Assembly: GCA_015832175.1 (NCBI GenBank)
Contig: WJXW01000001.1
Location: 5,084,001 to 5,148,000 of the forward strand
Direction of reading: 5' to 3'
Source: Paraphaeosphaeria minitans
Taxonomy: Eukaryota > Ascomycota > Dothideomycetes > Pleosporales > Didymosphaeriaceae
Length of the DNA: 64,000 bases
This document shows positions 5,301-63,283 of the stretch, one piece after another. The position numbers were made by a program, and so were the translations under genes. The notes beneath the pieces were generated by a model that made no database searches, was not told where the DNA came from, and saw only the letters and a program-made list of their open reading frames with translations. Numbering within the stretch: the stretch's first letter is position 1; the number at the start of each line of letters is the position of its first letter.

Positions 5301-5389
5301 TAAGATGTAAGCACAACAATCACAGAATAAGAGTAGGTAAGTAGAGAAACAATCTGTTAACTACCTAGAATTATTAATTTAGAGCTAGG

Positions 5390-21257: not shown

Positions 21258-22530
21258 GAGCCTTTAACTACTTACTAGTTAAAATCCTGTAACTAAATCA
21301 CAATCCGCCAGGTCCTTATTAGAAAGTATCTCTAGGAATAAGGGCTCTAGTAACTCTAGATCTAATATATACGCCTTATACGTTTCTACCACAGCTATTA
21401 CGCTGTTAAAGATAGTATTATTATATTATGTAACTATGTCTATCCACTATTAGAGCTGCGTAACTGTTATACCTTATTTAATATAGGTATTAGATATAGA
21501 GTTCTATAGTAGTATTGCAAATACGCCTACACTAAATCTTACCTTAAGTAGACACTATTTTCTTCCTATATTTAGGCACCAACTAAATTCCCTCTACGCT
21601 GTAGAATGTAGTCCCTTGCTTAGTTCTTCCTCTTCTATTATTCTAAATTCTTAAGCAAATAGAAGCTTTTTTACTATAGATGCGTATCCTTTCCCTCTTC
21701 TACTAGATAGCATCTTCCTTTTCTGTACTAGGGCCTCTAATAATTTAAACTCTAACTAAAGTACTACCTATATCTAGCACTACCGCATCTTACTTACTAT
21801 ACTAACTACCTATCCCTACCTTACGCTCTTATATAGCGAATAGAACCTCTTTGTCTTAAATTGTATAAAACTATTTTCTATGAAACTATTTTCTGTGAAA
21901 CTAGCACTAGAGCTTTGCGATAATACTATACTGCTCTTAGGTATAGTGTCGTGTCTAGTACTATTAACTATGTCTAGGAGTCTTTCTACCTTTTTCCTAA
22001 ACAACTATAGGCCCTATGTGTGTTTTATCCTCTAGACCTACAACACTATCTTCTAATCTTATAGATACTTAGCTACACCTATAGTAATTACTTAGCTTAT
22101 TATCCCTTTTACAATATTAACACCTACCCCTAGTAGTTTGTATATAAATATATAATAACGTTCCTCTTCTCTATTATCTTGCAATAACCCCGCGTTTATG
22201 TCTTATATACATAGCATAACCTCTACTATTGTGTTTACTAGCCAACACTTTAGGTCTTAATTTCTATTCTTTACTAAATAACTAGTTATATTTAATGTTC
22301 GTTTTTGTTTTAGAGGCAGTTTTATAGTAGTTACCCTAGTATCTTCCTCTTTATCTAACTCTTCTTTACTATTACTTTGTTACACTTAGTCCCTATAGAC
22401 AGAGTGCAAGAAGCGTAAAAATTCTCCCTTTTCTACTTATTTATATATTTATTACACTATAGACTCTAGTAAGCTGCTTATAAATGCCTTAGCGGGACAA
22501 CCTATTATCTACAGAATAGAACACTACAAA
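21258..22530 (-). pseudogene. Coiled-coil hypothetical protein, copy B
   Basis: This is the minus-strand counterpart of the gene at 40542-41810. It is best seen at 21816-22004, where an open stretch contains KKVERLLDIVNS and QFKTKRFYSLYKSVR. The same stretch carries a short in-frame duplication (SFIENSFI) absent from copy C. It is charged and helical with no enzymatic motif. It is divergent from the adjacent TLH gene and may share a promoter region with it. More stops than copy C. Confidence 0.5.
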
Positions 22531-22770
22531 GGCTTCTAATTATAAACCCGCTTATGTGCGTCTTGTATAAGGGAGGGAATTAGACTACTATTATCCTAAA
22601 GCACCTTAGCCTATAAGATTAAAGAATAGTAGGCTATAGCGTAGTGTAGTGTAAATGCGACCTAGGATAATAAATATTACCTAGCGTTTATCCTCTTTTA
22701 TTAGCACTAAAGTTTAGTCGCGTTATTTAAACTATAGATGTAGATTAAAATCTTTTATACTACCGCTAAC
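22531..22770. other. Divergent intergenic region, copy B
   Basis: This short region separates the minus-strand hypothetical from the + strand TLH gene and should contain both promoters. No defined site is visible. Confidence 0.35.
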
Positions 22771-24640
22771 TATAGAGACTCCTAAACACATCTACTATAA
22801 TAAGACCTATTACTTTATTACTTACATACTATATAGATATGTAATACTCCTAAGTAAGGTGTTTTCTTAGTTTAATAAGGAGTATAAACAAGAGATAACT
22901 AGTAAAGAGAGGCGTATTATCTAAAAAAGTGTTAATAAGCTTAGAAACCTTTACCTACTACTATAAGAGAAATATAAAGAATTTATAGTCTCTAAAACCT
23001 TAGTACTAGCCTTCCCTAGCCTACGTGTTATCCCTAACACTTATTACTATTATCGCTGTACCTACGTTACTACTAGGTCCTTTATAAGCCATAACATGCA
23101 CTAACACCTACGCTAAGAACATAAACTCTATATTACAAACATAGGCGAAGAATTAAGGACGCGCTGTTATAGTAAGTAAGTAAAGGGTGTAGATTACTAA
23201 TAGCTTTTCCTCTCTATGCCACTTATATTCTAAAACCTTTATCTTACTTATAAATTCATAGTTAAACTATCTACTAACTTACATAGCTCTAAAGCTACTA
23301 CTAAAAGAGTTAAGATTACAGCTAAATCTAGTATAAACCCTATACCTATGTCTGCTCCTACTAGTAGCAGATTTGCAGATTAACTCTAGGAAGCGTTATA
23401 ATAGGCTAAGAAAGTAAAGTAGGAGTAATTAGCAGCTATAGCTAGCGCACCCTCTATCTCTATAAATCTCTAGATTGCCTATACAGGTATCCTATAAGTG
23501 TTTAGCAACACGTCTACATAGGTAAAGGCTTTACGCTATATAGCTATACTAACTGCTATAGGTAATCTAAAGTTGCATTATCTCTATGTAACTATAAAGA
23601 GCATGGCTAGAATATAGTAGAATATTACTAGTAAAGCCTCCCACTACGCCTATAGGAGAGTAATATAGAAGTATAAGACTAATATTCCCCTTACTCTACT
23701 AGAGCTATACTAGGACCCTCGCCTCCGCTACGCAGGACTACTTTAGAAGATTTTTATCTTCTTCTACCACGTGTTAGTTAATAATATAGAGAAGCTACTA
23801 ACGCTTTATTTACAGCCTTACTAGGAGTAGACCTAGTAGGATATTATAGAGTACTTGGCTTTAATAGATAATATCCCAGAAGTCTAAGAGAACCACACTA
23901 GAACTTAATTCACACTATTTAAAGAGCACTACTATCGCTTTTAGCTATTCCTTATAGAATAAATAAGTTAAATAGAGTATTTTAGGATTAATGTGCTATT
24001 ATTACTAGATAAAAGACAACCTATGTAGGGAACACTATTATGTCCTATTACGTTTAGATAGGAAACAAATAGGGTAAAAGTAACTACTAGTCCTACCTTC
24101 TCCCTACTAATTACTACCCTAGGTGGATAATACTAGTATCTAACTAGGTTAGAACTAGACTATCAAAAGACGCTTTATATATTAACAAATTCGCTATTTA
24201 AGATACGTAGGTAATCCTGTAGAATAAGTGCCCAAAGGCGAAAGAGCTATAGAGTCATAACATTAAAGTAATTAAAGGTAAGGACTAGAATTCTAAGAGT
24301 ACTAATATATTCTAGCAACACTTTATTAGTGTTATTAATTTTAGTAATAACTACAAGGCAGAAAGAATTATTCTTAGCCTTAACTAGCTAACGTGGACCT
24401 ACTATATATCTAAGCGCTATATAGAGTTATAGTAGGACTGCCCTAGTTAGGGAGCTAGTGGAACCCCTTCTACAATACTAATTCAAATGTAATATAAACA
24501 TAATAATAGAAGGTTTAAAGTAGGTAACGTATACTATAAGACTAAAGGAAATATAAGAATCTATATCTATTATATAGGGTATAAGTAAGATAAATTAGGG
24601 GGAGAGGCTGTCTTGTAAATATATTAGGGTTTAAAATAGA
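22771..24640 (+). pseudogene. TLH RecQ-like helicase, copy B, motor domain deleted
   Basis: The N-terminus matches copy C, with the zinc-finger-like block VLAFPSLRVIP (from 23011) and HNMHXHLRXEH at about 23093-23125, typical of OrsD-like domains in fungal telomere-linked helicases. At about 23984/23985 the sequence jumps to the copy C position 46537. The whole central region and RecQ ATPase are missing (3,271 bases, not a multiple of three). The C-terminal domain (MSYYV, near 24038) follows directly. Since TLH proteins normally have the helicase here, B is a deletion, not C an insertion. Confidence 0.75.
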
Positions 24641-24753
24641 ATAGAAGAGCGTTAGGTACACGTCTAGTGTAAGCAGGAGTGTATTTATAACCCCTAGTAA
24701 TAGTAATTAAATACGTTATAAAAGGAAGTAATACTAAGCTAAAAAGACTACTC

Positions 24754-26560
24754 TTAAGGTGTAAATATATCCACTAGGCTTAGCTGTAGTAAGTAAGCTA
24801 GTATAAGCTTAGTGTCGCCTTTACCCTTATTATCTCTACTATTCTCGCCTTTCTTACCCTTGCCCTTACCTTTACCTTCCTTACCCTCCTTACCCTCCTC
24901 GCCCTCCTTACCCTCCTTACTCTCCTCTTCGCTATTAGTAGCCTCCTCTATCTTCGTAGGCAGCGTAGGTGCGACTACCTTAATAAGCAGCGTATCTTTA
25001 TTACTAATAGGCTTGCCTACTAACCTATCTACACCTAACTACGCACTTAGCCTCTAGCTTACCTAGTACACCTCTAGATTAACCTTTTTTACTACCTCTA
25101 GCTAGAGGTTCTACTCCCTAACACGCAGCGTCTACTCTACCTACTTATAAATAACGTTGCTAGGGATTAGGCATAAAAAGCCCTAGTTAAGGGTTTAGCA
25201 GCATTATACTACTAAGTAGCTTAGTTTAGGCGCAGCTTCTATGCATTCTACGCTAATATAAGCAGCTTATAGCTAAAAGGCATAACTATTTAAATAAGCG
25301 TAGTAATAGCCTTACTATTATATTACTTAGGTAGTACCCCCTCTACTACTAGCTTAGCTATCTTATTAGCGTAGGCACGCCTATAGAAGGCTATTACCTA
25401 GTAGTACTTAATGTGTATAGCTACTATACAGCACTTATAGTACTTAACTAAATAGTGCGTAGTAGCAAAAGTTTTATCTACTACACTTCTAGGTGCGTAG
25501 GACATAGCCTACGTTACCTATATAGTACCTACTTTACCTACTAGTAATACCCCTAGCTAGCTAGAGATAGGGAAGAGGCTACTATAAAAGCGCTAGACAA
25601 AGAGGAAAGTAGTAGCGTATTACTATATAGTCTTATTACTAAGTAACTATACGTAATTTAGCATGTAAGTAGCAGTTATATAGGGGCTAGTAGCTATAGT
25701 TATTAAGTTATACCTTTTACTCTTATTATTTTCCTTCCTAATGTTTTGCTTAAAGATCTAGGCAATATTAGGCTTATTTTCTAGCGTAATACTATTATAG
25801 GTATTAACTTCTGCCTAGCTAGCGTTTAGGGGAGGGTAAAGTAGACCTAGCTTAACTATCTTCCTGCGCTACTAGTAGGCTGCCTACCTATATTAGTAGT
25901 CCTGTTCTACGCAGTAGTTATTATAGGTTATTACCCTAACGTAGGTAGGCAACGCCTAGGACACAGGGCTCTATATAGAAGAGAGATAGAATAGTAGTTA
26001 GAAGTGAACCTACTTAGTGGGTAGAAAAGTAGAAGCAGAAATAGAGGGCTACTATATACACTTTAAAAAGGGCTCCTAGGCTAAAGAAGGCACTCTACTT
26101 AAGTCTTTAACATTATTATTATTAGTATCCTAACAGTTAGGATCTATAGCAAGTTACTAGGCAGTAGTAATAAGATATTACTACGCGTTATTAGGCAGCG
26201 TATTAGGGGGGAGTATCTAGCAAATTAGACTAATAGTAGATAGGAGTAACAGAGCAATTAGGACTAGCTTATAGTAGCTAGTGTTGTTAGGAAGCAACTA
26301 TCTAGCGCTATAATAAAGAGTTTATAAGCTTTATAAGTATAGTAAAATAGTAAGCTAGCGTGTAAAGAGCTATTTATACACTTTATTAGGGGGGTTATAA
26401 CTAAAGTTATAAAGAACACAACCTTTAGCAGCTAAAAGAAAGCTATAGGGGCCACTATTATAGTAAGTGGTAGTATCCTTAAGGACAGCTATCTAATATA
26501 TGTTTAAGTAGGAAGCAGCAGGTAAGATAGAAAAAGGTAGAATAAAAAGTAGTAGGTAGG
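24754..26560 (-). pseudogene. Hypothetical protein with Lys/Glu/Gly-rich C-terminus, copy B
   Basis: Minus-strand counterpart of 47306-49126. The CT-rich tract at 24836-24940 is the antisense of a Lys/Glu/Gly-rich tail. The plus-strand open frame over the same tract (24812-25057) is an artefact of this composition. It is more heavily interrupted than copy C. Function not recognised. Confidence 0.45.
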
Positions 26561-26599
26561 GAAAATATAGTAACGCGCTAAGCACCTATACTTATACTC

Positions 26600-29544
26600 T
26601 ACTGTACATTTATAACCTACGCGCTAGTGTAATTAACACTTATAACACTACTAAAGTATTTAAACTAATAGTAAACACGTAAACTAAGGTAAATTAACTT
26701 AACGCAAGCTAGTATTAAGTAATAGTAATTTATAATAATTTAGGTAAGGTAGTAGGGTGTAAATCTCTAAAATATAGTACTATAAAGCGCTAATCTATAT
26801 ACTTATATTAGACTAACTATTTAAACCACACACAAATTGTGTCTAGTTTAAATAATTATTTATAAGTAAGTATACTTCCTCTTATATTAAGCGCAGCTAC
26901 CTAGCGTAGCACATAAGAAAAAAAGTATATAAACGCAGAGCTAGGCGTATCTCTAAAATACACTACCACGTTTATTAACTTACAGCTAGCTCCCTACTAA
27001 CCTATATAGCTAAAGCCAGCACAGATAGGACTAACATACACAAACTAATGCAAATTAACACGAATTAATAGGAAGTAGCGTAGATTAGCACTAATTCTAT
27101 AGCGATTACATAGAAGGTAAGGACCTAGATAGGCCGCTTATAACTCACCAGGACTTATAGGCATGCCCCACAGATAGAAAGAATCTAGATAAGCCACTTA
27201 TTCCTTAACTTAATAGCAATTAACGCTAATTACTAAGAAGTAGTGTAAATTACTACTATGTGGACTTATAGATGCAAATGAGCTACTACTTCACTATACT
27301 ATATTATATAAGAAAGAGGGCTTTGTAAGCAAAGGTCCTAGTAACGCGAATTAACGCGAATTAATGTAAATTAACGCCAATTAACGCAAATTAACAGAAA
27401 GTAGCGTAAATTGCCACTATATTAACTTACAAATTATAAGGATCTATACAAAAGTATTAAAACTATTCTATCTAGAGACTATGCTTTAGATTATAGATAA
27501 GGAAGACATAGATAAGCATCTCGCACTTAGGCAAATAGGCTATCTTAACGCGAATTCACGTAAACTAACGCAAAGCAGGGTGCATTAGCACTAAGTTAGT
27601 ACTAACCCTAATATATAGCAAGCACCTAGATAAGCTGCCTGTTCTTTATTAGAGGACTTATAGGCATGCCCTATAGATAGAAAAGATATAGATAAGCCGC
27701 TTATTTCTTAAATTAACGTAAATTAACGCGAATTAATAAAAAGTAGCGTAAATTGGCACTAAGTCTATACTAACCCTAATATATAGTAAGTACCTAAATA
27801 AGCCGCCTATTCTTTATTAGAGGACTTATAGGCATGCCCTATAGATAGTAAAGATCTAGATATACCGCTTATTTCTTATCTAAGGACATTTAGCCATGCC
27901 CTATAGACAGGAAGTCGTTGTCTATAGGATAAGAATGCGGTATAGCTGTAGGGGCTATATTATAATATAATTAATAGAGCAAGTATAAGTAGTAAGACCT
28001 CCTAATTATATAAATTAGAGACATTAACGCCAGTTTATACAAATTAACGCTAATAAAGAGGAAGTAGCGCAAATTACTACTATATTAACTTATAAATAGT
28101 AAGGATGTAAACACACTACTACTTTACTATATAAGATTAGGTAAAAAAGAGGGCTATGTGAGTAAAGGCCTAGATTAACGTAAACTAGCGCTATATATAG
28201 CAAATTAAGAGGGAATAGTTTACGTAGAGCTCTTTAGGGCTAGTAGCTTAAACTTTAGAGCCTATAAAGAACACCTATACACGTGCCTATAAGAACCTTA
28301 ATACTATACCTGCTCTGCCTTACGCACTATTATAGTTAGCCTATAAGTAGAATAGAGTCTTCTATAGCCTTCTATAATAAGTACCCTTAAGAAAGTAAAT
28401 TTATATAATAGATTTAAAGCTTAGCGTGCTTAGTTTTTTTTAGAGGCCAGATCCACTACTCTAGACGTTAAAAAAATAACCACACAGTAAGACGTTACAA
28501 AAGGACAATGCCTATACTTAGAAATCTATAAAAGAGTATAGTTCTATTCCTTACGTACCACTTATTTATTAGTAAGGCAGTAGAAGTAGACTAAATAGAG
28601 TATAATACCCTAAGAGTAGGCGTAAGCATAGGCTATTTTCCGTGTAATTAAAACATCTTATTAAGGTATACACCTCCTACTACTACTACGCTTATCTACA
28701 CTAGAGACGTTATATCCAGTAAGGGTCTAAAGGATACAGAAGTAGGGCAGTTGCCCTATAGAGCTAAATATAAAGTAATCTCTTATTAACTTTAACAGAA
28801 GGCGCTTTACTAGGCTAAATAAGGAGAAATAAATAAATTAACGCAAAGTAATAAAAGACAGCGCGAATTAGCACTAGGTGACAGTAATATATAATAATTT
28901 AGGCGAGGTGGTAAGAGTAATATATAGGAAATATAGTCTAGCAAAGTACTAACATATATACTTATATTAGAATAACCTTTTTACGCTTTAATATTAACTA
29001 GTTTACATAGGTTTTAATTACTAAGCGTGCTTTAGCTAGGACTAGCTAGCCTATATAGATTAAAAAGAAGCGTAGTAGTAGAGTTAAAAAGTAGAGTAAG
29101 AGCTTCTAAGGCTAGTGTGCCTAAACCCTAGATATAGCTATAAGCGCTATGCCTAGGATTTAGTAGACTGCGATGTAAGGGGTAACAGCGCGAATATAGA
29201 TAGTAATTCACAATAATTTAGGCGAGGCTAGGCCTAGTAATATAATAAAAAAACTTAGTGTATAACTATGCCTCTATAGTTAACTAGTGTAGATACTACC
29301 TAAGTTCTTTTATTAATATTCCTTAGCGCTAATACAGGCTAAGTACTCTTATTAATAATAAATAAACAGGAGGTAAAGGTGCGTATTATGTATATAGAAA
29401 CTAGCTCTTTAGCCCACCTTACAATTTATAAAGTGCGCTAATATACCCTCTTATAACATTTATAATATTAGAGATACCTTAAACTAGTCTAGTAAGTATT
29501 ATATTATATCTACACCTTATAGTAGCTATAACAACGCGCCGCGT
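26600..29544 (+). repeat. Spacer copy B (noncoding modules)
   Basis: Colinear with spacers A and C. It contains the same TTAACGCGAA modules, the 165-bp GGCATGCCCTA modules and three ATAATTTAGG motifs (near 26728, 28892 and 29210). No protein-coding frame survives RIP correction, and no RNA gene was recognised. Confidence 0.8.
26815..26857 (+). repeat. Conserved palindrome, spacer copy B
   Basis: Arms AACTATTTAAAC and GTTTAAATAATT with a 19-bp loop. One base has changed from G to A relative to copies A and C, consistent with RIP. Confidence 0.7.
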
Positions 29545-31015
29545 GTAGTATATAGTTAACATTCTTAATAAAGTCCCCTTACGCCCTACCTACCACCTAT
29601 TAACAATCTTACGCCCACTACCTATTATAGAAAAAAAGGGCGTGCAGCTCTTTAGCATCTCCCTACCCTATAGTAATAATAATAAGTTTAACTTCTCTGC
29701 CTTCTCTAGCCCTAAGCTCTAGCCCTAGAGTCCTATAATAAGGGATGTCTCTAAGGAAGCTAAGGAGCCTAGGGTAATATTATAATAGCTAACGCCTATA
29801 GTCTCTAAGGTTAAGGAGCGCTTTCTATACCTATATAGGTCTTACTACACTAGTAAGACTAACGTGCCTAATAACCCTTTAGTAGAAAGCTCTGTGCCTA
29901 TTACGCGCATAGACACTAAAGACTAAAGTAAGGGTAATAATAGGGCTATCTTACCTATCTATACTACTGCCACCACCGCTACCGCTAAGGTAGTAGAAGA
30001 GGAGAAAGAAGGAGAAGGAGAAAAAGAGGTTAAAAAGGAGAAGGGAGGAGAAGAAGAAAAAGAGAAAAAGAACGCTAGTCTATAGACTTATTCCCCTATT
30101 AGAGCAGAAATATATACAGAGCTGTTATTACGTAAGCGTTAGAAGGTAAACATATTAGCCCTAGCTAGTACTCCTACTAAAAGTAATATCTACTATACTT
30201 CTAACTAGTAGTATATACTGCTAGAGTCTTATACACATTACGCCTACGTAGAGCTTATTATTAGCATATAGAGTAAGGATGTAAAGGATATAGAAGATCT
30301 AATAGTGTATAATTATTACGCAGGAAGTACTATTATAAACGCTATTAGACCTTATAGGGTATACTATACAGATCTCTATACAGCGTACTTATAAAAGCTT
30401 AGTTTCTAATATACAAGATATTAGCTAAGTAGTAGAAATTATAGTATTATAGATTAGCGTAAGGCTCTAGTAATAACGCCCTTATGTAAAGCGCAGGGCC
30501 TGTCTAGATACACACCTAGCAGCTATATAGGCAAAGGGGGGCGCCCTAGATCTACGCTAGAGGAGAAAGTGGCAGCGTATAAGCGTAATAAGCGTAAGGT
30601 AAGAAAGGCACATATATAGCGCTAGGCTGTAAAGAAGCAGTAGATAGAGTAGTAGTGTAATATACAACCCTATATAAAGTCTTAACCTAGTATGCGCAGT
30701 AAGTAAACAAACTACTATAATATAGCTATTTTTAAAATTTAAAAGCTAGACGTAATACTATATATTAAAAAGTTACAGTAATAACTACTATACATAGATA
30801 GCGTCTTAAGTATTATATCTACTAGCGTAGGTAGCGTTCTAAGTATTATTATTAACAACAGCTATAGGAGTTGCGGGCAGCCATATACTAAGTAGTTAGT
30901 ACCTAACCTTATTAAGCTTTGTAGGAACGCTATAGTACTATAAGTACACATTATTACAAGCTAGAATTATAAGAGTAATCTTTTATATAGAGGTTAAGTT
31001 TTAGATTACACATAA
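29545..31015 (+). pseudogene. Cys-rich protein with AT-hook and basic region, copy B
   Basis: Same gene as 52110-53591 in copy C. An acidic Glu/Lys-rich low-complexity stretch (about 29990-30075) is followed by a Cys-containing domain, of which several Cys have become Tyr (ESYTHYAYVEL where C has ESCTRCAHAEL), then GKGGRPRSTLEEKVA near 30534. Loss of the Cys pairs would destroy metal binding even without the stops. Start approximate. Confidence 0.5.
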
Positions 31016-31651
31016 GAATAGCACCTCTAAGCTAGGGCAAGTAGACACTAACACAAGTTAATAGGAAGCAGCGTAAACTAACACTAAGTAGTAGCTGTTT
31101 ATAATAGTTTAGTAATAGGTTAGCTTTAGGGGGACCTATTAACAAACGCATCCCTAGTTACCTATAGGAAAGTTATAAGTTGTAAGCTTAGCAAAGTCTA
31201 GGTTAAATTAGAAGATAACTAAGGCGTAATTAGGACCCTACTATTATTAAGGTCGTACTTAGTCTAGAAGGGCAAGGCAATCTATTAATATAGAGCTAAG
31301 GGCGTATCTCTAAGATATAGTATTACGCGCATTAACTTAAAGCCAGCTTACTACCTACTAGTGTAGTAGAGGCTAGTATTAATTATAGGGTTATTAGTGC
31401 ACTAAAACTAACCAAGAACACGCAAATAGATACAAACTAATAGAAAATAGTGTAAATTAACGTTAAGTGGCGCCAAATCGCATACAAAGGAAGACTCTTA
31501 TTTAGACAGGTTAAGGGAAAGTATCCTAGCGGCAAAGGGAATAAAGGTAGAAAGTGCGCTTATAGGCTTATAACTTATACTCGCTCTAGAAAGAGTAGTA
31601 TTAGGATTACTTATAGTTACAGTAGTAATACTGCAAACAGCTACACATATA
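31016..31651 (+). other. Intergenic region, convergent gene ends, copy B
   Basis: It lies between the ends of the + strand AT-hook gene and the minus-strand SNF2 gene. It carries isolated spacer-type modules (AGTTAATAGGAAGCAGCG near 31057 and a related one near 31438), as well as AGGGCGTATCTCTAAGATAT near 31288, which is also seen in the 3-kb spacer. No gene seen. Confidence 0.5.
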
Positions 31652-34600: not shown

Positions 34601-36245
34601 AGTAGTAGTAGGTAGGAGTGTATTACTATTACTCTAGACAGGCGCCTAGGACTTTACTCCTCTAACGTTATTATTAGTGTTTCTACGCTTAGGGCTAAGC
34701 TCGCTTATATTATTCTTATTATTACTACTACTAATCCTATAGCGTTTACTATATTAGGATTCGCTTCTATAGCGTCTAGCTAGATGTTTATATTGTTCTA
34801 ATCCACTACTATTAGTATAACTACAACTTAAGGCTAGGCGGGGAGTAGTCGTAATAATAGTAGTGTGTACCCTATTAGATATAATATCCTAGAGTGCAGT
34901 CTATAGGCCTACACGTGTCCTAATCTATATGTGGCCTTTAACATAATCTGGCAGGTACACAATACCTAACTAGGCTAACCTAAAGAGATCTATTACCTTA
35001 TCTAGGAAGTTATTCTACTAAACACGTCTAGAACTATTATATATAGTAGAGGTGTTCACTTCACCAAGTATAGTCTTATCGCCTATTACTAAGTATTCTA
35101 TAAAGTAGAGATTAATATGGTCCAAATACAGTTTAGGTAGGTAAGTGACAAGTCCCTAGCCTTATACTAACATAGATTATTTAAAGGAAGAAGTAAAATG
35201 CTATACATCCTAGTTTTTAATTATATTGTAGACAGTAGTTCCTAATAACTTAGTATTAACATCTAGCATTAGCAATAGCTTAGGCTTACATACTAGCGTA
35301 GGTAATAGCTTAGACTTACGTGCTAGCGCTTTATCCTTTAATTAACGCCTACTATACCTATTTAGTATCGCGTAGAGGGCGCTTACCTTCTATACTTTAT
35401 TAGCAATATTAACATCTAGCTTAGGGATCTTCTTAACAATCTACGCCGCGTATAACTCCTTTAGAATAAAGTAGTTGCCTTTATAATATTAGTTTTCTAG
35501 GTTTACAATTAGCAATATTATTTTTAACTACTTTTTAATGCGGCTAAAGCCTATTAGGTCTAGGCTAAACGCTTCTATGTATTTATTATTACTAAGTAAG
35601 GATATTACTATAGATTTTAACACCTTTAAAAACAACTATAGTAGAGCTATTACAGATCTAGTGTGCGCGCTATCCTACGCCATATAAGAAAGGTTTATTA
35701 GTTATAGGCGTACGCTAGGGGTAAGATAGGTATAGTTATAAGTTTGTATTAATTCGCGAAGACTTATAGGGTGTAGAGTTAAAGTTATAAATTAACATTA
35801 AGTAGCAGTAAACAGAAAGATTACGTATTTATTATTACCTAGGTAAATATAAATAGTAAACTACGTTAGCAACAAGAACGCGTGTAGGCTGTAACTATTA
35901 TAATAAGAAAGTGTAAGGGGACTACCTAGAAGCGTAATAAGAAGTCCAGTTAAAACTAGAAAGACTAGTAGGCGTTATATTATCGCGCAGAGGAGCAGAA
36001 GAGAAGGGGACTACCTAGTCTAGCTAGATAAACTAATGTCCTAGCTATAATCTGTTAGCGTACTATAGACAGTAGATAATATATTCTACTAAGTAGAAAC
36101 TTACCTTATTACTAGACTCACGCGTAAAGCGTTAAGCTATTATTAAGTCTATTACGCGTAGGAGCGTCTTTAATACGCCTTATATATACGCTTACAGCTT
36201 TACCTTATAAACTATAATAAGTAGGGCAAATAGCTAATCGCGTAC
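31652..36245 (-). pseudogene. SNF2-family helicase, copy B
   Basis: The reading on the minus strand matches copy C. The Walker A segment (antisense of about 33899-33950) reads GVGKI instead of GVGKT, because ACG has become ATA, so ATP binding would be lost. The C-terminal helicase half is antisense of about 31812-32280. An Asn-rich microsatellite sits between the N-terminal region and the ATPase. Many stops. The minus-strand open frame 34141-34473 is a shadow in another frame over this microsatellite. Confidence 0.7.
34203..34325 (-). repeat. ATT/AAT trinucleotide microsatellite in SNF2 gene, copy B
   Basis: Runs of TTATTATTATT with interspersed GTCGCTTTT or TTACTTTT. On the minus strand it encodes Asn runs broken by Lys-Ser. 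Its length and interruptions differ from copy C. Confidence 0.85.
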
Positions 36246-36602
36246 CTTCCTATTATAGCTTACTTAGGCTAAACAAAACCTTCGCTATCGCTTACTCCTC
36301 TTACTATAGTTACCTAGATAGTCCCCTACTTCTTCTCTTCTACTCCTAACTTTGCCTAGTATCTAGCCCTCTTAACTCTTGTTCTTTCTACTACTCTTAT
36401 ACTATACTACTGCGTTAAGTTAGGCGCGTTAAGTGGTTACTATTACCCTACTTACTATTACCCTATTAACGCTAACGCGCACCTCTACGTATAAGTACAC
36501 CTTTATAAGCGCCTTTCCTAAACGCTTTCGCCTACGCCTATAAATATTAGAAACTATCTTATAGATACTTACATTAAGGTATAGTTTCTATATATAAGTA
36601 TA
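36246..36602. promoter_or_regulatory. Divergent promoter region of SNF2 and SF1 helicase genes, copy B
   Basis: The two helicase genes are transcribed away from each other, so both promoters should lie here. The sequence includes GTTAGGCGCGTTAAGTGG and a near-repeat TACTATTACCCTA/TACTATTACCCTA (about 36429-36466), also found in copy C. No consensus element is certain. Confidence 0.4.
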
Positions 36603-49126: not shown

Positions 49127-49139
49127 CGCGCTAAGTACC

Positions 49140-52109: not shown

Positions 52110-53591
52110 CGCCGCGTGTAGTATATAGTTAATATTCTTAATAAAGTCCCCTCGCGCCCTACCTACTGCCTATTAACAATCTTACGCCTACTACCTACTA
52201 TAGAAAAAGAGGGCGTGCAGCTCTTTAGCATCTCCCTACCCTATAGTAATAATAACAAGTTTAACTTCTCCGCCTTCTCTAGCCCTAAGCTCTAGCCCTA
52301 GAGTCCTACAACAAGGGATGTCTCTAAGAAAGCTAAGGAGCCTAGGGTAATATTATAACAGCTAACGCCTATAGTCTCTAAGGTTAAAGAGTGCCCTCTA
52401 CACCTACGTAGGTCTTACCACACTAGTGAGACTAACGTGCTTAATAACCCTTTAGTAGAAGACTCTGTGCCTATTACGCGCGCAGACACTAAAGACTAAG
52501 GCAAAGGTAACAATAGGGCTATCTTACCTATCTACACCGCTGCTGCTGCCGCCGCCGCCGCCAAGGTGGTAGAAGAGAAGGAAGAAGGAGAAGGAGAAGA
52601 GGAGGTTAAGAAAGAGGAGGGAGGAGAAGAAGGAGAAGAGGAGAAGGACGCTAGTCTGTAGACTTATTCCCCTATTAGAGCAGAAATACGTGCGGGGCTA
52701 TTATTACGTAAGCGTTAGGAGGTAGACATATTAGCCCTAGCTAGTACTCCTACTAAGGGCGATATCTACTATACTCCTAACTAGCGGTATATGCTGCTAG
52801 AGTCTTGTACACGTTGTGCCCACGCGGAGCTTATTATTAGTATGTGGGGTAAGGATGTAGAGGATATAGAGGATCTAATAGTGTGTAATCATTGCGTAGG
52901 AAGCACTATTACAGACGCCATTAGACCTTGTAAGGTATACTGTGCGGATCTCTGTGCAGCGTACCTATAAAAGCTTAGTTTCTAATATACAAGATGTTAG
53001 CTAAGTGGTAGGGATTATAGCATTGTAGATTAGCGTAAGGCTTTAGTAACGACGCCCTCGCGCAAAGCGCAGGGCCTGTCTAGATACACACCTAGTAGCT
53101 GTGTAGGCAAAGGGGGGCGCCCTAGATCTACGCTAGAGGAGAAGGTGGCAGCGCATAAGCGTAATAAGCGTAAGGCGAGAGAGGCGTATGCGCGGCGCTA
53201 GGCTGTAAAGAAGTAGTAGATAGAGTAGCAGTACAATATACAACCCTATATAAAGTCCTAACCTAGTATGCGCAGTAAGTAGACAAACCACTATAACGTA
53301 GCTGTTTTTAAAATTTAAAAGCTAGACGTAATACTATATATTAAAAAGTTATAGTAATAACTGCTATACGCAGATAGCGTTTTAAGTATTATGTCTACTA
53401 GCGTAGGTAGCGTTTTAAGTATTATTGTTAATAACAGCTGTAGGAGTTATAGGCAGCTATATACTAAGTAGTTAGCACCTAATCTTGTTAAGCTTTACAG
53501 GAACACTATAGTACTATAAGTACACATTATTGTAAGCCAGAATCACAAGAGTAATCTTTTATACAGAGGTTAAGCTTTAGATTACGCATAA
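52110..53591 (+). pseudogene. Cys-rich protein with AT-hook and basic region, copy C
   Basis: The frame reads about 490 residues with few stops. An N-terminal Ser/Pro/Asn-rich part leads to an Ala run (about 52535-52565) and a Glu/Lys/Gly tract (to 52650). Then comes a Cys domain: ESCTRCAHAEL near 52800, IVCNHCVGS near 52882 and PCKVYCADLCAAY near 52926-52965. Next is GKGGRPRSTLEEKVAAHKRN near 53110-53165 and a basic stretch to 53220. The GRPR core is AT-hook-like and the CxxC pairs suggest a metal-binding fold. A nuclear DNA-binding or regulatory role is inferred. Ends at TAA 53589-53591. A start codon could not be fixed. Confidence 0.55.
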
Positions 53592-54227
53592 AGATAGTAC
53601 CTCTAAGCTAGGGTAAGCGGACACTAACGTAAGTTAATAGGAAGTAGTATAAACTAACACTAAGCGGCGGCTGTTTATAATAGTTTAGTAATAGGTTAGC
53701 TTTAAGGGGACCTATTAACAAACGTATCCCTAGTTACCTATAGGAAAGTTGTAAGTTGTGAGCTTGGCGAAGTTTAGGTTAAATTAGAAGACAACTAAGG
53801 CGCAATTAGGACCTTACTGTTGTTGAGGTTATGCTTAGTCCAGAAGGGTAAGGCGATCTGTTAACGTAAAGCTAAGGGCGTATCTCTAAGATATAGTGTT
53901 ACGCGCATTAACTTAAAGCTGGCTTACTACCTACTAGTGTAGCAAAGGCCAGTATTAATTGTAGGGTTGTTAGCGCACTAAAACTAACTAAGAACACGCA
54001 AACAGATACAAACTAATAGGAAATAGTGTAAATTAACATTAAGTGGCGCTAAATCGCATGTAAAGGAAGACTCTTATTTAGATAAGTTAAGGGAAAGTAT
54101 TCTAGCGGCAAAGGGAATAAAGGTGGAAAGTGCACTTATAGGCTTGCAACCTACACTCGCTCTGGAAAGAGTGGTATTAGGATTATTTATAGTTATAGTG
54201 GTAATGCTGCAAACAGCTGCACATGTA
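53592..54227 (+). other. Intergenic region, convergent gene ends, copy C
   Basis: Counterpart of 31016-31651. It contains stray spacer modules (AGTTAATAGGAAGTAGTA near 53633, GGGCGTATCTCTAAGATATA near 53877). No gene seen. Confidence 0.5.
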
Positions 54228-57200
54228 TTAGGAAGGGTAACTTTTCATTTATAAACTGCTTTGGTTGTCCTAATTAGAAATTCTACCTATAGCCCAGCGT
54301 GTTAACGTTTAACCTACTATAGGTATCTTAGGTATTTTAACCTTAATTTGCTTAAACTAGTCCTTTTAACTGCTATTACGTTGCCGCTAGATCTCCTCGT
54401 CCACGTTATACGTCCTATCCTATAGATCTACGCCCTCCTCTATTATATCCCTAAGGTTGGTAGCTATCTATATCTGCTTTGTCTTCTGCTTTTTAATATG
54501 AGACGCGTTGTTAATAAGCGTGATTACGTAGCACTTTAATTTAGTTTGGCCACAACAGTAAACCCGCGAGAAGAACTGGGCTGTTGTTAATAGATTTATG
54601 TAAGGCTTAAACAGTATTACTGTGTTTGCGCGCTGCAGATTTAATCCTACGCTAGCTGTCTATAGCGTTACTACTATAATTCACGCCTTATTAATTTTGT
54701 TTGCATCCGTAAACTTGCGTAAGTTGGTTTTATGGTTTTTAGCTTTTGTACTTGTAGTGTAATTAAGGACATTTCTATCCCTATAGGTGTGGTATAGTAT
54801 GGCGATTAGGATTCTGGCATGGTTAGGCTATGCTATCCTAATTACTACTTTTTGGCGCGTCTGTTTATCCTTGCGCAGCGTTTCTTAGATAGGGTCTAGT
54901 ATCCCTTTTAGCGTTAACTACTTTGCGTATAACGTGGACATCTGCAATCTTATTACTAGATAACTCTGGGTAGTGGTGTTGCGTAGGAATTCTAGATACT
55001 AGAGTAGAGCGTAATTCTTAGTAAACTCCCTAGTCTTATTATCTTGCTTCTTCTACTTATTAAAAGCCTATACGACTAGCGCCACACTTACTATGGCTAG
55101 GGCTATTATATATCTGTGTGCCTTATTAGCTAACCCTTTTTTAGGCTTCTAGCTTAGAGGTGCTTCGCGCTCCTGCCACTCTGCTAGGGCTTTATTATAC
55201 TTATAATTTATCTCTGCCTATAGCTTGTCTTCTATGTCTTAGATCCACTTCTCCTCTCTTTTATTAGGTTTTATATATATGGAGCGCCTTACCAGCTCAC
55301 TAGTTATAGGAACGATAACGCAGTTATTAAACCAATATGTGTTTAGCGTCTGGGCTATAATAAATAATGGCGCAGCTTCTTGTGCTATATTATTAAAGTT
55401 TTTATAGAATGCTGTCTTATAAAAGGACTTATTGGTTACACTAGATGCGCCAATACTTTTGGTTATACAGTAGTGTAGGTTGTTAAGGTTGTTTATCTCG
55501 TCGCTGCCGTAAAGACACTAAAGCCCTTTGAAAGTATCTATAGTAGTAGTCTAGAATGGCTGTTAGAGCGCAGTAGTATAGAAAATGTAACTATTAACTA
55601 GGTTGTTCCCCTCTGGCGTACCAGATGCGCCCTAGATAATTAGGTAGCGTTAATAGGCGTTCCAGAGGGATGTGTAGGTGTATTCTATTGCAGTCTGCAT
55701 TTTAGACCTGTTTACAGCTTAGTGGCACTTATTGTATAACACGCACTTAACCACTAGGAGATCTGCTTTACGCACGTAGGTTATTAGAGTCCCTTAAAAC
55801 TTTCCATCTATGCTACGCTTCTTCCCTATTGTAATAAGGCTAAACTTAAACTTATTAAAGACGTTTCTAATATAGTAAGGAGTTAATAAGACAATAAGAT
55901 CTAAGGCCCTAGTTAGCACATATAGGTGAGGGGAAAGGACGTTTAAACTATTTAATATAAATGTATTAATCCAGGAGCTCCACTCCACAGGTAGAATATT
56001 CCCCTATTTATCTTTTCACATTCTGTTACTATTGACGATGCCCTAATTAGAACTTATGTCCTTAATATTAACCCTCTTACTGTATTTAGTAACCTCTATT
56101 GTAGAGAGAGGTAGGTGGTTCTGTAAAGCACTCTAGTTCTTACCCTCTTTAAAGGTGAAGCGAAAACTAGGGTACATTTTAAAAAAGGTGCCACCCTTAA
56201 GTATCTTCTATATATTATTTTAGAAACTGGTTAGAGCAGCACGCAAGGTAATAATAAGAGTGCTGCTAGGCTTAGGCTCTTAGTTAAGGAAGAGTTTCTT
56301 GTAATTAGATAGTAAGCACTAGCAGGTAATAAGGTTATAAGAATAGGAGGGGCAATTGCTATTAATTGCATTCTGTAGCAAGTACTTTATTATATTCCTT
56401 TACTTCTATACTGCCCAAACCTCTGCGTAGTTTGCCTTGTGGTACCTGGTTATAATTACCTTAAGTAAGAGCTAGATCGTTTTACCTACGCCCTACTTAT
56501 TACCTAGGATGCCACCGCCTGTGATCGTGCGCTCTATTAGGAAGCCCTCTATAACTAATATAATCTGGTAGGGCTTAATGCAGATGCCGTCTTTCAGCCC
56601 CTAACATTAGAATGGGATGCCTTGGGTCTATATTATCGCATTCTAATTTAGCTAAGGGATTACCTTTACTACCTAGCTTAAGGCTCCAGCACTTATATGT
56701 ACGCATTTAACCCTTATTAACTTATCTAGCTATAGATTAATAGGCTATACATCTTAACTGTCCTTAAGCTATAGATTGTATTCCTTGTTACTATTATTAT
56801 TATTATTAACGTTGTCGCTTTTATAGTTATTGTCGCTTTTATTATTGTTGTTGCTTTTATTGTTGTTATCGCTTTTATTATTATTATTATTGTTAATTTT
56901 AATAAGCGTCTTCGTAGGACCAATTATATAAAACAAAGGTAGAACTCTATTACCCTAGTCCTACTTAGTAGTCTGCCTGTGGACACTAACGTGGCTAGGC
57001 TAGGCGATCTGGCTTTTAGTGGCAGATTTGTTATCGCCAGTATATACGCAAGGAGGGTATTTGTCTTTACCCTTACCCTACGTAGCGCTGGTGGTACTTA
57101 GTCTACTAATAGTAGTAGTAGGTAGAAGCGCATTGCTGTTACTCTAAATAGGCGTAGTAGTGCTTAGTCTACTAATGGTGGTAGTAGGTAGGAGCGTATT

Positions 57201-58813
57201 ACTATTACTCTAGATAGGCGCCTAGGACCTTACTCCTCTAACGTTATTATTAGCGTTTCTACACTTAGGGCTAAGCTCGCTCGTATTGTCCTTATTATTG
57301 CTACTGCCAATCCTACAGCGTTTACCATATTAGGATTTGCTTCTATAGTGTCTAGCTAGACGTTTGTATTGTTTTAATCTACCACTATTAGCATAACTAC
57401 AACTTGAGGCTAGGTGGGGAGCGGTTGTAACAACAGTGGTATATACCCTATTAGACATAATATCCTAGAGTGTAGTCTATAGGCCTATGCGTGTCCTAAT
57501 CTGTATGTGGCCTTTAACACGATCTAGTAGGTACACAACACCTAACCAGGCCAACCTAAAGAGATCTATTGCCTTGTCTAGGAAGTTATCCCACTAAACA
57601 CGTCTAGAACTGTCGCATATAGTAGAGGTGTTTACTTTACCAAGTATAGTCTTATTGCCTGTTACTAAGTATTCTATAAAGCAGAGATTAATATGGTCTA
57701 AATGCGGTTTAGGCGGGCGAGTGACAAGTCCCTGGCCTTACACTAATATAGATTGTTTAAAGGAAGAAGTAAGATACTATACGTCCTAGTTTTTAATTAT
57801 ATTGTGGATAGTAGTTCCTAATAACTTGGTATTAACATCTAGTATTAGCGATAGCTTAGGCTTACGTGCTGGCGTAGGTAATAGCTTAGACTTACGTACT
57901 AGCGCTTTATTCTTTAATTAACGCCTACTATACCTATTTAGCATCGCGTAGAGGGCGCTCACCTTCTATACTTTATTAGTAATGTTAACATCCAGCTTAG
58001 GGATCTTCTTAACAATCTACGCTGTGTGTGACTCCTTTAGGACGAGGTAGTTGCCTTTGTAATGTTAGTTTTCTAGGTTTACAATTAGTAATATTGTTTT
58101 TAACTACTCTTTAATATGGCTGAAGCCTATTAGGTCTAGGCTGAACGCTTCTATATATTTGTTATTACTAAGTAAGGACATTACTGTAAATTTTAACGCC
58201 TTTAAGGATAACTATGGTAGAGCCATTACAGATCCAGTGCGCGCGCTGTCCTGCGCTAGGTAAGAAAGGTTTATTAGTTATAGGTGTACGCTAGGGGTAG
58301 GATAGGTATAGTTATAAGTTTATGTTAATTCGCGAAGACTTATAGGGTGTAGAGTTAAGGTTATAAATTAACGTTAAGTGGTAGTAAATAGAAAGATTGC
58401 GTATTTGTTGTTGCCTAGGTGAATGTGAATAGTGAACTATGTTAGTGACAAGAACGCGTATAGGCCGCAACTATTACAATAAGAAGGTGTAAGGGGACTA
58501 CTTAGAAGCGTAATAAGAAGTCCAGTTAAGACTAGGGAGACTGGCAGGCGTTATATTATCGCGTAGAGGAGTAGAAGAGAAGGGGACTACCTAGTCTAGC
58601 CAGGCGAACCAATGTCCTGGCCATGATCCATTAGCGTACTGCAGACAGTAGACAATATGTCCTACCAAGTAGAAACTTACCTTGTTGCCAGGCTCGCGCG
58701 CAGAGCGTTAAGCTGTTATTAAGTCTATTGTGCGCGGGAGCGTCTTTAATACGCCTTGTATATACGCTTGTAGCTTTACCTCGCGAACTGTAATAAGTAG
58801 GGTAAATAGCCAA
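54228..58813 (-). pseudogene. SNF2-family helicase with Asn-rich insert, copy C
   Basis: The minus-strand frame is followed for about 1,370 residues, from near 58350 down to a TAA at 54228-54230. The N-terminal region has LTQTYNYTYPTPSV and SLKALKFTVMSLLSNNKY. An Asn/Lys-Ser microsatellite follows. The Walker A segment GGILGNKXGVGKTI (antisense of about 56480-56520) still has GVGKT. The second lobe has ASVGLNLQRANTVILFKPY (antisense of about 54600-54660) and SRVYCCGQTK (about 54540-54575), the SNF2 motif V and VI arrangement. SNF2 proteins use ATP to move along DNA and remodel chromatin in the nucleus. A separate open frame at 58631-58813 (QQGKFLLGRTYCLLSAVR) may be an upstream exon. Open part 55794-55988 is in frame. 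Confidence 0.75.
56775..56900 (-). repeat. AAT/ATT microsatellite in SNF2 gene, copy C
   Basis: ATT repeats with GTCGCTTTT interruptions. On the minus strand it gives repeated Asn runs separated by Lys-Ser-(Asp). The minus-strand open frame 56726-56923, rich in Ile, is the same repeat in another frame and is not a gene. Confidence 0.85.
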
Positions 58814-59175
58814 TCGCGTACCTTCCTATTACAGCTTACCTAGGCCAAACAAAACCTTCGCTGTTGCCCGCTCCTCTTACTATAGTTGCCTAGGTAGTCC
58901 CCTACTTCTTCTCTTTTACTCCTAACTTTGTCTAGTATCTAGCCCTTTTAACTCTTGTTCCTTCTGCTACTCTTGTACTATACTGCCGCATTAAGTTAGG
59001 CGCGTTAAGTGGTTACTATTACCCCGCTCACTATTACCCTATTAATACTAACGCGCGCCTCTACGTATAAGTACACCTTTATAAGCGCCTTTCTTAAACG
59101 CTTTTGCCTACGCCTACAAATATTAGAAACTGTCTTATAGATACTTATATTAAGGTATACTTTCTGTGCATAAGT
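58814..59175. promoter_or_regulatory. Divergent promoter region of SNF2 and SF1 helicase genes, copy C
   Basis: This is the only space for promoters of two divergent helicase genes. TTAAGTTAGGCGCGTTAAGTGG and the TACTATTACCC near-repeat are conserved with copy B. Their role is inferred from position. Confidence 0.4.
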
Positions 59176-62100
59176 ATGCCTAGTTTTAGTGCTAACTACT
59201 ATACCTAGTCTAGCTGTTATTATAGACGCCTAGGTAAAGCACTTTACTACTTATAACACTAGCTACCTAAAGCCTAAGCCTAAGTTCTCTAAAGGCGTCG
59301 CAGTCTTTAATATTACGTACAAGAATACTGCGAATCTAGGTTCTAGGCGCATCTCTATAGGCCACATTTTTATAAAAGAGTAGCTGTTCGCCATGTTAGA
59401 CAACTAGGCTAGCGATAGCTAGACAATATCTTAGTAGCTTTATAATAAGTACGGACAGCTAGGCCACCTTTAAGCTAGATGCCCTAGCTAACTCTACTAT
59501 AAGTGTAGTAACCCTGGCTATCTAGCGTTAGGTTGCCAACTTTAAAACACCTACTATGCCTACAGTAACACAGGACATAAGCGTAAAGACTATTAGAACG
59601 TTTACCCTTACTACCTAACAGAGGGCTATACTACTGCTAACTACTACGTAATTAACTGTGTACCTACACCTACTTAAGCTAGTTAAGCTGTAGCCACCTC
59701 TACTAAGAGCGTAGTCCCTGCTAAAGACAAGACTACACCTATAGGTTTTATAGCTACACCTACTAAAGTATTAGGTGTTCCTACTAACACTACTATTGCG
59801 CCCACAGCTGGCAAAGCTTCTACTAACTTAGAACTGGCAAAAGATTATAGTCCGCCTCTTGGTTAGTTTAAGGCCCTAGAATCGGACGAGATAGAAGTTA
59901 AGCTATATACTATAACTATAGAGCACTATTTGTTATCTATCTAGCTGCGCCTGTTAGTCTTGTACGTGAGCGAAAACACGGTAAGCGGCCAGTTTACTAA
60001 GGAAGCTATCCTTTAGACCTCTGCCTTTAATGCTGTTAGCCTAATTAAGACTTATAAGATATTAGTTAATTTGCCTATAGAATCTAACTAGTGTAATTTT
60101 AACTATCTTAGTGCCTATAGTCGCAAAAAGCTAATACAGCTTATCTCTAGAGATGGCGCCACAGCCTGTCTACTCTACGTATCCTAGGAGATTAAGACAG
60201 ATACTAGCCTAAATAAATAGTCCTAAAATCTCCTAGGGCTTACGCTATTCTCTAATAGCACCTATAGCCTATACACAGCTATAATACACGCGCTTTAAGA
60301 CGCGCTGTAGGGATGCTACTATATATAGGTTCACTTCTACACTATAGCCAGCTCGTAGTTTAAGGATGCCATGAATAAGGTTTCCAAATTAATCCAAATG
60401 CAGGTGAAAGTTAACACTATAACTATCTAGTATCTGCGTTAGGCTATTAACATCTAGCTAGGGATACAGCTTTTGCTAAATAAGTGACCTAAGTACTCTA
60501 TCCCAGCACGTAAGCAGTTTAACTGTTATAAGGAGTATTTCACAGTGTATTTCTATTTAGCTATTATAGAGTACAAGGCTATCCCTAATGCTATGTTTAT
60601 GCCTATAAAGGTGCGCCTAGTTAAGATAGGTAGTAATCTAGACTAGCGCGCCTACTTTGCGCTTATTATAATAGACAAAAATATAAACCTTCGCGTTAAC
60701 GCCCTATTTAATATCTAGTTCCTTAGTAACAACGTAAGCAATAGTATAGTATGGAGAGGGTGCGTGGTGCTGCTAGTAGGTATTGCTAATGGCCTTAAGC
60801 ACTCTACCTTTATCTAGCGACTCTATAATAGTAGGTCTAGTTTCTAGTAGGACCCTAAGTTCTCTAAGGACCACGTTATTAAGGCTAATAACTTTAATAA
60901 TATTAACTAGCTATGGGCTGCGCTGGATAACCACCTAGGCATTAAAGTCTATATTCGCGTTAAGCAACCCTAGAACTAAATTAAGCAGGAAATTAATACG
61001 CTGTGTATACTATTCTAGTAGTAGAATAAGTATAAACTAAAGCTTAACTTATTACTTAATAATAACATACTTAATCTCCCTAATTATAGCTACTTTAAGC
61101 AGCACATTTTAGCGTTTGGACTTAATACTGTGTAAGCTACTATCGCCAAGGCCACTAAGCTTACTAGGCTAAAGGATAAGTAGCGAGGTTTCTTCTCTTT
61201 CCTTAAGCGCTTACGCGCCAGCGTTGGCCTTGTTTAGGGCCCTAGTGGTATAGGTAAATTAAGGTTAATCTTAGCTGTTATCCTCTACTACTATAAGCTG
61301 TTCGCGCGTGGTAGTAACGCCAGTTAGCTCTAGGTTACGTTACCTATTAACGCGCAGTTGGACAACCTGTGCCTATAAGTGTATAACCAGCTAATGGCTT
61401 GGTACACTATGCTTAGTACCTAATCTACTAACACAACTATCCCTTACCCTATTATTATTCGCCGGCATATATAGGAGATAGAGAAAAAGGTCTGGTAAAA
61501 AGATACACTTACCTTACGCCAGGCGCATAATATTAACACTAGCCCTAATTATACGCCTAATGTTAGTGGTGCCTCTACTAGCGAGAATAAGGATAATAAT
61601 ACTATCCTAGAAAACCTATTTATTAAGTACCTTCTACGCACTGCGTTTAATTGGCATAGTAAGAGTCTTAGTAATAATTGGCTTAAGTAGGTTAGTATTG
61701 TAGAAGGACAGTAGATGCTACACCTTACTAGTATACCTATAGAAGGCAGGCAGCTCTACCCTATTGCTAACTTAAACCCTAGGAAGTACTCATAGTTCTG
61801 CGACCTAATAGAGTAGTATATAAGCGGCTATATTATAGTAGTAAAGGATATAGGGTCGCTTTAAGCTACTGTAAACGCGCTAGTAGCTAATCTAGCTCTA
61901 CTTATACACGCTATCTTTATAACACTGTATACGCTATCTAAGTACTACACCCACTCTAAGAGTAAAGCATTTACCACACTCTAGAATAAGGCTAGTAAGA
62001 CTACTAAGCGCGCTACCCTCTACTCCTTTGTCTAGTTACAGCTGGACGCCTTCTACGTCCTATTTAGGGACACGTTCTAGCCTACTCTAGTAGTAGGACT

Positions 62101-63283
62101 GGCTAGGCCTATAGAGACCTATTACTTTTATAAGTAGACTAAGATGTCGCTCTTCTCCTGCTTTGTCCTTAGTGGCGCCTCTTAGCACTAGTTAGATTTC
62201 TAGTATTAGTTTGTTCTAGACATAGTGGCTATAGTGAACGCAATCCTACTAGGCGAGAAGCTATGGACTAACCCTAGGGTTACTAATCTACCTAATTTTA
62301 ACTGCGCTTACTAGTTCTTCTGCGATAAGCTTGGCGTTCCCTAGACTATCTGCTTCCTGTAGGTGTAAGGCTAGACTAGCTTAAACATGGTTATAAAGTC
62401 TACGTACAACGTTTCCTTTGCAACGCGCTGTATTACTATTATACTCTGGCTTCTCTACTAAGGGTTTAAGGGCGAAGATATAGGCATTGTTGTTCCCTAT
62501 ACAGCGCAACGCGACCTGTACATTATAGGCGTCTATACAGTTGCTAACCACCTTTAGGCTATAGATAAGTAGGACACTAATTTAAAGAAGCGTATCGCCA
62601 AGAAGCTCTTAAAAGTTACTATCTCTACTATAGATGGCCTTTAGGGTGCGTAGAGGGATGTAATACTACTAGACACTATAGTTACTAGTAAGCTTAGATT
62701 TATGTAAGACACTAGCTGTATCCTCTTAGCTATTTCTTGTCCTTACGTTAGTCTTATTATTATTAGAGACAGCAGCGCCTACTACAACAAAGCCTATAAT
62801 AAAAAGGCGCACTAGAAGACTGCTTACTATAAAATAGTGCATTATTGCTAAGAGTAAAAATACTTTATTAACATTAACAGCTTAAGGCATAAGGAGCGCT
62901 AGATAAAGATTACCCTACTAATTAGACTAGATGAGAAGCTTACTAGCATTTACGCAATAAATAGTGCTAATAACTAGCCCTACACCTTTAGAGATACTAA
63001 GGATAATAGTTTACTAGTTTTAGACTTTATTAAGGAGCTACATGGATTAGATAGTAGTAGTGTAGACGTTGGCTTTAGTAATAACGATAATAGTATATCC
63101 ATTGGCAGGGGATCCAACAGCGGCCAGGCTAATACTAAGTGGGAGGTTTCTGGTAGAGCGGGAGATAGCTAGTAGTAATACCTAGGAGAATCCTAGTAAT
63201 AATATCTAACAGACTCCTATAATATATGGTAGACTCCTTATAGGTAGTGTTATAGGGCGGCATAGTAGTAAGCTAGCCCCTAA
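59176..63283 (+). pseudogene. CCHC-SF1 (UPF1-like) helicase, copy C, full length
   Basis: Domains in order: a short N-terminus, then tandem zinc knuckles around 59440-59610 (NKYGQLGHLXARCP, YKCSNPGYLALGC, YSNTGHKRKDY, with some ligands mutated). A long linker and helical region follow. P-loop GPSGIGKLRLIL sits at about 61238-61274, and the Ia-like INAQLDNLCL near 61340. C-terminal lobe: IGIVVPYTAQRDLY near 62480, VTISTIDGLQGAQRDVILL near 62614-62676, and LLAISCPYVSLIIIRDSSAY near 62716-62780. This is the SF1B/UPF1-like order of an ATP-dependent RNA or DNA helicase. The tail has a repeated DS/ES-QQQYL block. The frame ends at TAA 63281-63283. RIP stops are fewer in the last 800 bases. Start uncertain. 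Confidence 0.8.

Follow-up and report, generated by a model that had tools for sequence, protein, structure and literature searches.

How does a block of helicase genes come to stand more than once, in the same order, near one chromosome end of the fungus Paraphaeosphaeria minitans? The window studied here is a stretch of 64,000 bases (C1:5084001-5148000, C1 being contig WJXW01000001.1) from a genome of 47.45 Mb in 30 contigs; C1 is 5,154,056 bases long and terminates in 16 TTAGGG repeats, with the telomere 6 kb beyond the window. An initial annotation had described a tandem unit of six genes, including a RecQ helicase of the TLH type, a SNF2 helicase and a superfamily 1 (SF1) helicase with a CCHC zinc knuckle, and had offered a mobile element or a subtelomeric amplicon as its origin. 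We found that the repeated block is indeed subtelomeric and multi-copy, but not a simple tandem duplication of six genes: elements whose left ends are fixed have captured the end in separate events and now lie stacked in the window. They belong to three families built on one plan: the centromere-side end is constant to the base and, in complete elements, an AT-rich tail and the telomere follow. Each family has a member in the window:

14531-39826, + strand: short-family chromosome-end element, cut short on its right side at the joint with the long unit
39824-63694, + strand: long-family chromosome-end element, of which 23.9 kb are kept; cut on the right at the TLH joint
63691-64000, + strand: left end of the terminal TLH element, which runs 6.06 kb on to the telomere (C1:5154056)

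These one-ended elements attach close to chromosome ends at short sites that match them, with loss of whatever lies distally, and captures stack. The explanation that we favour, and consider probable, is that the block belongs to element families that occupy chromosome ends and spread through end capture, and that its helicases were later killed by repeat-induced point mutation (RIP). As part of the same explanation, and with similar confidence, we regard the smaller TLH element as the currently intact capturer.

Left ends and joining sites

The long-family left end is present in at least 38 copies in the genome, spread over 17 contigs, C18 and C25 among them, and 24 of their ends. This census scored the best 40 of 57 candidates and gave 41 rows, from which two holding only the tail of an older unit were dropped and two representing one copy were merged. 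All copies listed lie within 122 kb of a contig end, in keeping with the chromosome-end location suggested initially, and 36 of the 38 share one orientation (C25 assigned by the side of its TLH). The other two, at C3:121554-122187 (+) and C18:30639-38116 (+), face away from the nearest contig end, possibly owing to an inversion, an internal insertion or an assembly joint.

With the window set aside, the BLAST match began precisely at the left-end base (query position 124/125) in 27 long-unit copies and no more than 18 bases off in the other 10. Where long-unit junctions were read base by base, all 25 share one start base; 24 read CTAATATTATTAG and one reads CTAATATTGTTAG. TLH junctions begin with CCTACCC or its RIP-altered form in 28 of 29 cases, one starting a base later, and the short-family left end is identical in the four junctions read. 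Across the families the left ends begin CC, CT and AG; the idea that they resemble telomere repeats (CCTACCC, CTAA..TTAGG) was dropped, the sequences being too short for a test. Right ends vary, so that the constancy of boundaries raised by the initial annotation holds for the left end alone.

The acceptor sequences to the left of the elements are varied and include points throughout the long unit, the inside of TLH, the AT-rich tail and retroelements. They are distinct for at least 21 of 29 TLH and 24 of 25 long junctions, the remainder representing one event found at several ends. This bears on the most ordinary alternative, subtelomeric amplification by break-induced replication from other ends (a Y'-like or TAIR model), in which the helicases would be passengers and the element would make nothing. 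Two papers describe such capture for Magnaporthe telomeres (PMC8381367, PMC7367193), and the junctions common to two or three ends mean that copying of ends does occur. Homology-driven copying, however, is not expected to start at one donor base, yet 53 of the 54 long and TLH junctions read do so with mostly distinct acceptors, nor is it expected to need the first 2-4 bases of the donor. It also sits poorly with the lack of a TTAGGG pair, none being seen outside the terminal tracts in six chromosome-end stretches compared (C1, C2, C3, C8, C9 and C12) or in 40 junction pieces. We therefore regard simple amplification as unlikely, while giving it more weight than the other alternatives considered below.

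A classical two-ended transposon inserting near telomeres, with right ends lost later by truncation, would account for the defined left end and the short target core, as in a Crypton-like element. Against this, in the six end stretches no acceptor sequence was seen to pick up again beyond an element on its right side (most junctions being read as short pieces only), and we saw neither target duplications, whose possible presence had been raised initially, nor two-ended insertions at the elements. TLH adjoins telomere repeats at many ends, and the intact TLH elements of C1, C2 and C3 themselves end in telomere. We consider a two-ended transposon very improbable.

What the acceptors do share with the elements is a short core. 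The uncut acceptor could be reconstructed from another copy for 53 of 57 junctions (L042, L046, L057 and L072 having no reference continuation); the TLH junction at C3 16535, the one that is a base short, was not entered. Once each acceptor was counted a single time (20 TLH and 22 long cases), with the four short-family junctions left out, long acceptors matched the first bases of the element, CTA, at C in 20/22, at T in 22/22 and at A in 18/22, and TLH acceptors matched CC in 16/20 and the full CCTA in 8/20. The mean shared length was 2.77 bases for the long and 2.70 for the TLH element, as compared with 0.32 and 0.24 at random places, and none of 20,000 random sets reached the observed value for either. 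Shifting the comparison reduced it to 0-0.8, and swapping the two elements gave 1.25 and 0.91, raised because both begin with C. Since the shared bases are confined to the element terminus, they argue against microhomology repair without a defined end, which would scatter them over the element.

Primer-like microhomology at a fixed template end is, by contrast, what would be predicted if elements were copied onto ends from an RNA or nicked-DNA template whose 3' end is defined, with 2-4 bases of the broken end serving as primer, as in telomeric retroelements that lack an endonuclease. Three observations speak against such copying: the TLH and unit frames scanned (part of the frames of each stretch, as in all our Pfam scans) gave no reverse transcriptase match, the long element exceeds 23 kb, and the 32 TLH open reading frames (ORFs) among the matches listed are all full length. 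We judge it improbable.

Anatomy of the window and action of RIP

The repeat noted initially is real, with 23984-39826 matching 46536-62402 at 88.9% over 15.9 kb, but the unit bounds proposed for it were wrong, the true starts being 39824 and 14531. Nor does the long unit end at 63283, as first drawn, since it runs on to 63694, where TLH joined. That position was in turn ruled out as the unit's own right end: in C3, C8, C9 and C12 the unit continues past the equivalent point for about 700 bp and then passes into an AT-rich tail. The short-family right end (39826) corresponds to long-unit position 62402. The two families differ by about 36 transversions per kb over their first shared 2.7 kb, and by 1.5-5.6 per kb over the remainder (three ends). 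Around and inside these units lie the following:

14659-15207, + strand: 62-bp minisatellite just inside the short-family left end (TRF score 724)
39914-40079, + strand: 33-bp minisatellite inside the long-family left end (TRF)
7253-10248, + strand: piece of a third long-family unit, spacer region only, equal to 49287-52302
1-7257, + strand: copia-type long terminal repeat (LTR) retrotransposon of about 7.3 kb in the older long unit (RVT_2, E 4.5e-24, frame 135)
10249-14530, + strand: gypsy-like LTR retrotransposon, cut where the short-family element begins (RVT_1, E 1.8e-19)

The stretch 7251-10248, initially taken for the remnant of a third copy, does repeat 26732-29729 and 49287-52302 (89.6% over 3.0 kb against the latter). 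It is, however, a piece of another long unit, whose left part begins at C1:5074500, 9.5 kb left of the window; this unit was split by the copia-type element, resuming on both sides of it, and cut by the gypsy-like element. The copia-type element has terminal repeats of about 200 bp (93.5% over 200 bp), the left one beginning some 66 bases before the window, and is foreign to the chromosome-end element. The gypsy-like element has a 6.58-kb copy in C3 with ends TGTTACG..AACA and a 5-bp duplication, TAAGC. Within it ARAGORN called a tRNA-Ala (AGC) at 14128-14208, which we rejected as it had no Rfam match.

The window is RIP-mutated nearly throughout, with TpA/ApT of 1.66-2.51 and (CpA+TpG)/(ApC+GpT) of 0.28-0.73 in 2-kb windows. 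Its longest stop-free stretch is 126 amino acids, and intact coding sequence is confined to the last 43 bases, the start of TLH. When the long unit was compared with its counterpart in C8, we counted 2,382 transitions and six transversions over 23,846 aligned bases, CpA being the commonest changed context. So few transversions among the transitions mean that the copies were almost identical at the time of RIP, which points to a recent spread of the long element with RIP afterwards. The last 0.4 kb of the unit (63300-63694) is 99-100% identical between ends, as compared with about 90% elsewhere in the unit; its CA+TG density is 15 per kb, as opposed to 75 per kb for the long unit, which leaves RIP little to change there.

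The helicase genes

Three helicase types are supported by motifs in the translated frames, RecQ-type (+), SNF2-like (-) and AAA_12 (SF1, +), and their order and orientation are fixed, as described initially. The AT-hook/Cys-rich, coiled-coil and second hypothetical genes annotated with them could not be upheld: they had no Pfam match in the frames scanned and no clear open frame across copies, and stops common to all copies support the helicase frames only. The helicase frames of the window are:

42704-47302, + strand: RecQ helicase pseudogene, distant TLH paralogue (DEAD 44868-45317, Helicase_C 45456-45743)
54153-58016, - strand: SNF2-type helicase pseudogene of the long unit (Helicase_C match)
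59081-63340, + strand: CCHC zinc-knuckle and AAA_12 (SF1) helicase pseudogene of the long unit (AAA_12, E 2.6e-08)
23429-24750, + strand: RecQ/TLH-like frame with its middle deleted (tblastn; residues 4-193 beside 1280-1534)
31580-35440, - strand: SNF2-type helicase pseudogene of the short-family copy
36505-39825, + strand: CCHC/AAA_12 (SF1) helicase pseudogene of the short-family copy, truncated at residue 1107 of 1420

The claim that every copy carries three helicases is correct for one window copy only, the long-family unit. The short-family copy has lost the RecQ motor through an internal deletion that is identical in C1, C2 and C3.

All copies found of the long element's helicase genes have been killed by RIP. 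Stops occur in 25/25 SF1 and 24/24 SNF2 matches among those listed genome-wide, with TAG and TAA far more frequent than TGA. Twelve SF1 copies retain a frame of 1,420 residues without interruption, which suggests RIP-killed genes rather than chance frames. SNF2 directly adjoins SF1 in all 21 SF1 matches among those listed, so the two do travel together as first proposed, and truncation of SF1 is one-sided, none of the 21 lacking the left of the query and nine being short on the right.

For the SNF2-type frame, Pfam found Helicase_C in six of six copies and SNF2_N in none of them; motif I, GGILGDE-x-GIGKT, is readable in copy L028, and the nearest PDB names are RAD5, ATRX and Ino80, all weak matches. 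AAA_12 was detected in four of six SF1 copies, and the CCHC knuckle reported initially is readable in copy L029 (CNKC..GHL.ARC); we take this helicase to be UPF1-like. Neither the SNF2 nor the SF1 gene is a TLH. A profile search of 5.8 billion proteins returned no homologue of the RIPped SNF2 and SF1 genes at E 0.001, nor did the PDB profiles, which does not establish their absence, since any homologues were probably masked by N-rich stretches and the damage from RIP. At C11:187069-188070, a long 63-base tandem array has weak (73%) similarity to the SNF2 region and is probably low-complexity.

The long-unit RecQ has a Pfam Helicase_C match (6.5e-07) and a DEAD match (3.9e-05) just under the curated cut-off, and aligns with the TLH profile over 749 columns, helicase motor included (hhalign, 99.9%). 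Its motor is preceded by a tyrosine-recombinase-like motif set present, with RIP changes, in five copies, and the position expected for the catalytic tyrosine reads as Tyr in all five broken copies. An AlphaFold2 model of the middle of this protein (pLDDT 50) was set aside.

The terminal TLH ORF, beginning at the ATG at 63958, encodes 1473 amino acids and is intact, with Pfam matches to DEAD (2.9e-15) and Helicase_C (1.2e-12) and PDB matches to RecQ, RECQ5 and BLM. A fold of the tyrosine-recombinase type is also found in TLH, giving predicted domains of a zinc finger, a recombinase-like fold and RecQ; no Crypton or captain Pfam match was obtained, and the catalytic tyrosine, located by spacing, is replaced by Phe in 58 of 58 TLHs. 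Among the fold matches, rank 40 is a chain of a Zincore (SEPHS1:QRICH1) entry; QRICH1 is presumably Crypton-derived.

The terminal 6 kb (C1:5148001-5154056) matches the best 10 of 121 candidates at 100% identity (rounded), and RIPped inner copies at about 90%; C2 stands at 99.7%, and the TLH next to the C12 telomere is RIPped (86.7%). TLH tandems occur at C1:1680-16027, C4:4197583-4206943, C6:1677-11037 and C19:579780-595390, with a period that is often exactly 4987 bases; in the C4 tandem, 68677 is the point of the preceding copy at which the following one is attached. Named sources of TLH relatives elsewhere include Neocucurbitaria, a Dothideomycete; Didymella, Parastagonospora, Hortaea and Aureobasidium, which we take to be Dothideomycetes; and a metagenome-assembled genome of Watsoniomyces, a Lichinomycete.

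A candidate mode of spread and known systems

In the mechanism that we propose, an element would join a subtelomeric site sharing its first 2-4 bases, CTA for the long and CC(TA) for the TLH element, and all sequence distal to that site would be lost. Successive captures would then produce an apparent tandem array in which each earlier element is truncated at a different point, and the element would have no end of its own opposite the fixed one, save the AT-rich tail and telomere. The long element would have carried a TLH-like RecQ with recombinase-like motifs, an SNF2-like and a CCHC-SF1 helicase, with RIP then killing the copies found. An element-encoded TLH-family protein (zinc finger, recombinase-like fold and RecQ) may define the end or make the joint. 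If the left end and a CTA site underwent reciprocal exchange, all of this could happen in one step and without a second end; the main alternative would be copying from a nicked left end. More tentatively, and with clearly less confidence than in end capture itself, we suggest a new class of mobile DNA, single-ended chromosome-end transposons, in which zinc-finger/tyrosine-recombinase/RecQ fusions of the TLH family might join the left end to short CTA/CC(TA) sites and replace the distal chromosome end.

Several ingredients are familiar. Yeast Y' elements are likewise subtelomeric, helicase-bearing, tandem and amplified at ends, whereas here no telomere tracts lie between units in the stretches read and unrelated acceptors are joined at one fixed base. 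Cryptons and Starships share a recombinase-like fold, a short target core and the lack of a visible target duplication; the elements described here differ in having no second end, no Crypton or captain match in TLH and a replaced catalytic tyrosine in that protein. Unlike in Helitrons, the left ends are not 5' TC, and no Rep match was found in the frames scanned.

Reports of TLH genes at the ends of fungal chromosomes date back to 1998-2002, and published work already describes full and truncated TLH regions, subtelomeric repeats altered by RIP, and the capture of ends once telomeres fail (PMC12857005, PMC8381367, PMC7367193, PMC4522978). The TLHs of this genome resemble Fusarium oxysporum TLHcr, M. 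oryzae TLH and the U. maydis RecQ-like gene (PMC12857005) in the RecQ motor, a near-identical gene by the telomeres at many ends, truncated copies and neighbouring telomeric elements; they differ from described TLHs in the fixed left end with its target core, the recombinase-like fold and the larger relatives with SNF2 and SF1 helicases. Residence at chromosome ends, truncation and stacking are also described for MoTeR, FoTeR and Penelope-like telomeric retroelements, from which our elements are set apart by the lack of a reverse transcriptase in the frames scanned and by joints outside telomere repeats. Helicases within transposons are known as well, one paper naming SNF2 in Inton/Enton and RecQ in Academ (PMC3627910); here three helicase types occur together, at chromosome ends, with no transposase match in the frames scanned. 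Among titles and abstract openings we found no description of a recombinase domain in TLH, of a fixed left end or of an SNF2/SF1 block with TLH, which is no proof of novelty.

The elements add a multi-helicase family to the known inhabitants of telomeres. With a fixed end, a target core and a recombinase-like domain in hand, the spread of TLH becomes testable, in the form of whether TLH cuts or binds its own left end. If the single-ended class is real, TLHs would be the genes that mobilise selfish telomere caps, and a larger machine belonging to that class would include the SNF2 and SF1 helicases. Such elements would explain the swapping and truncation of whole chromosome ends in fungi.

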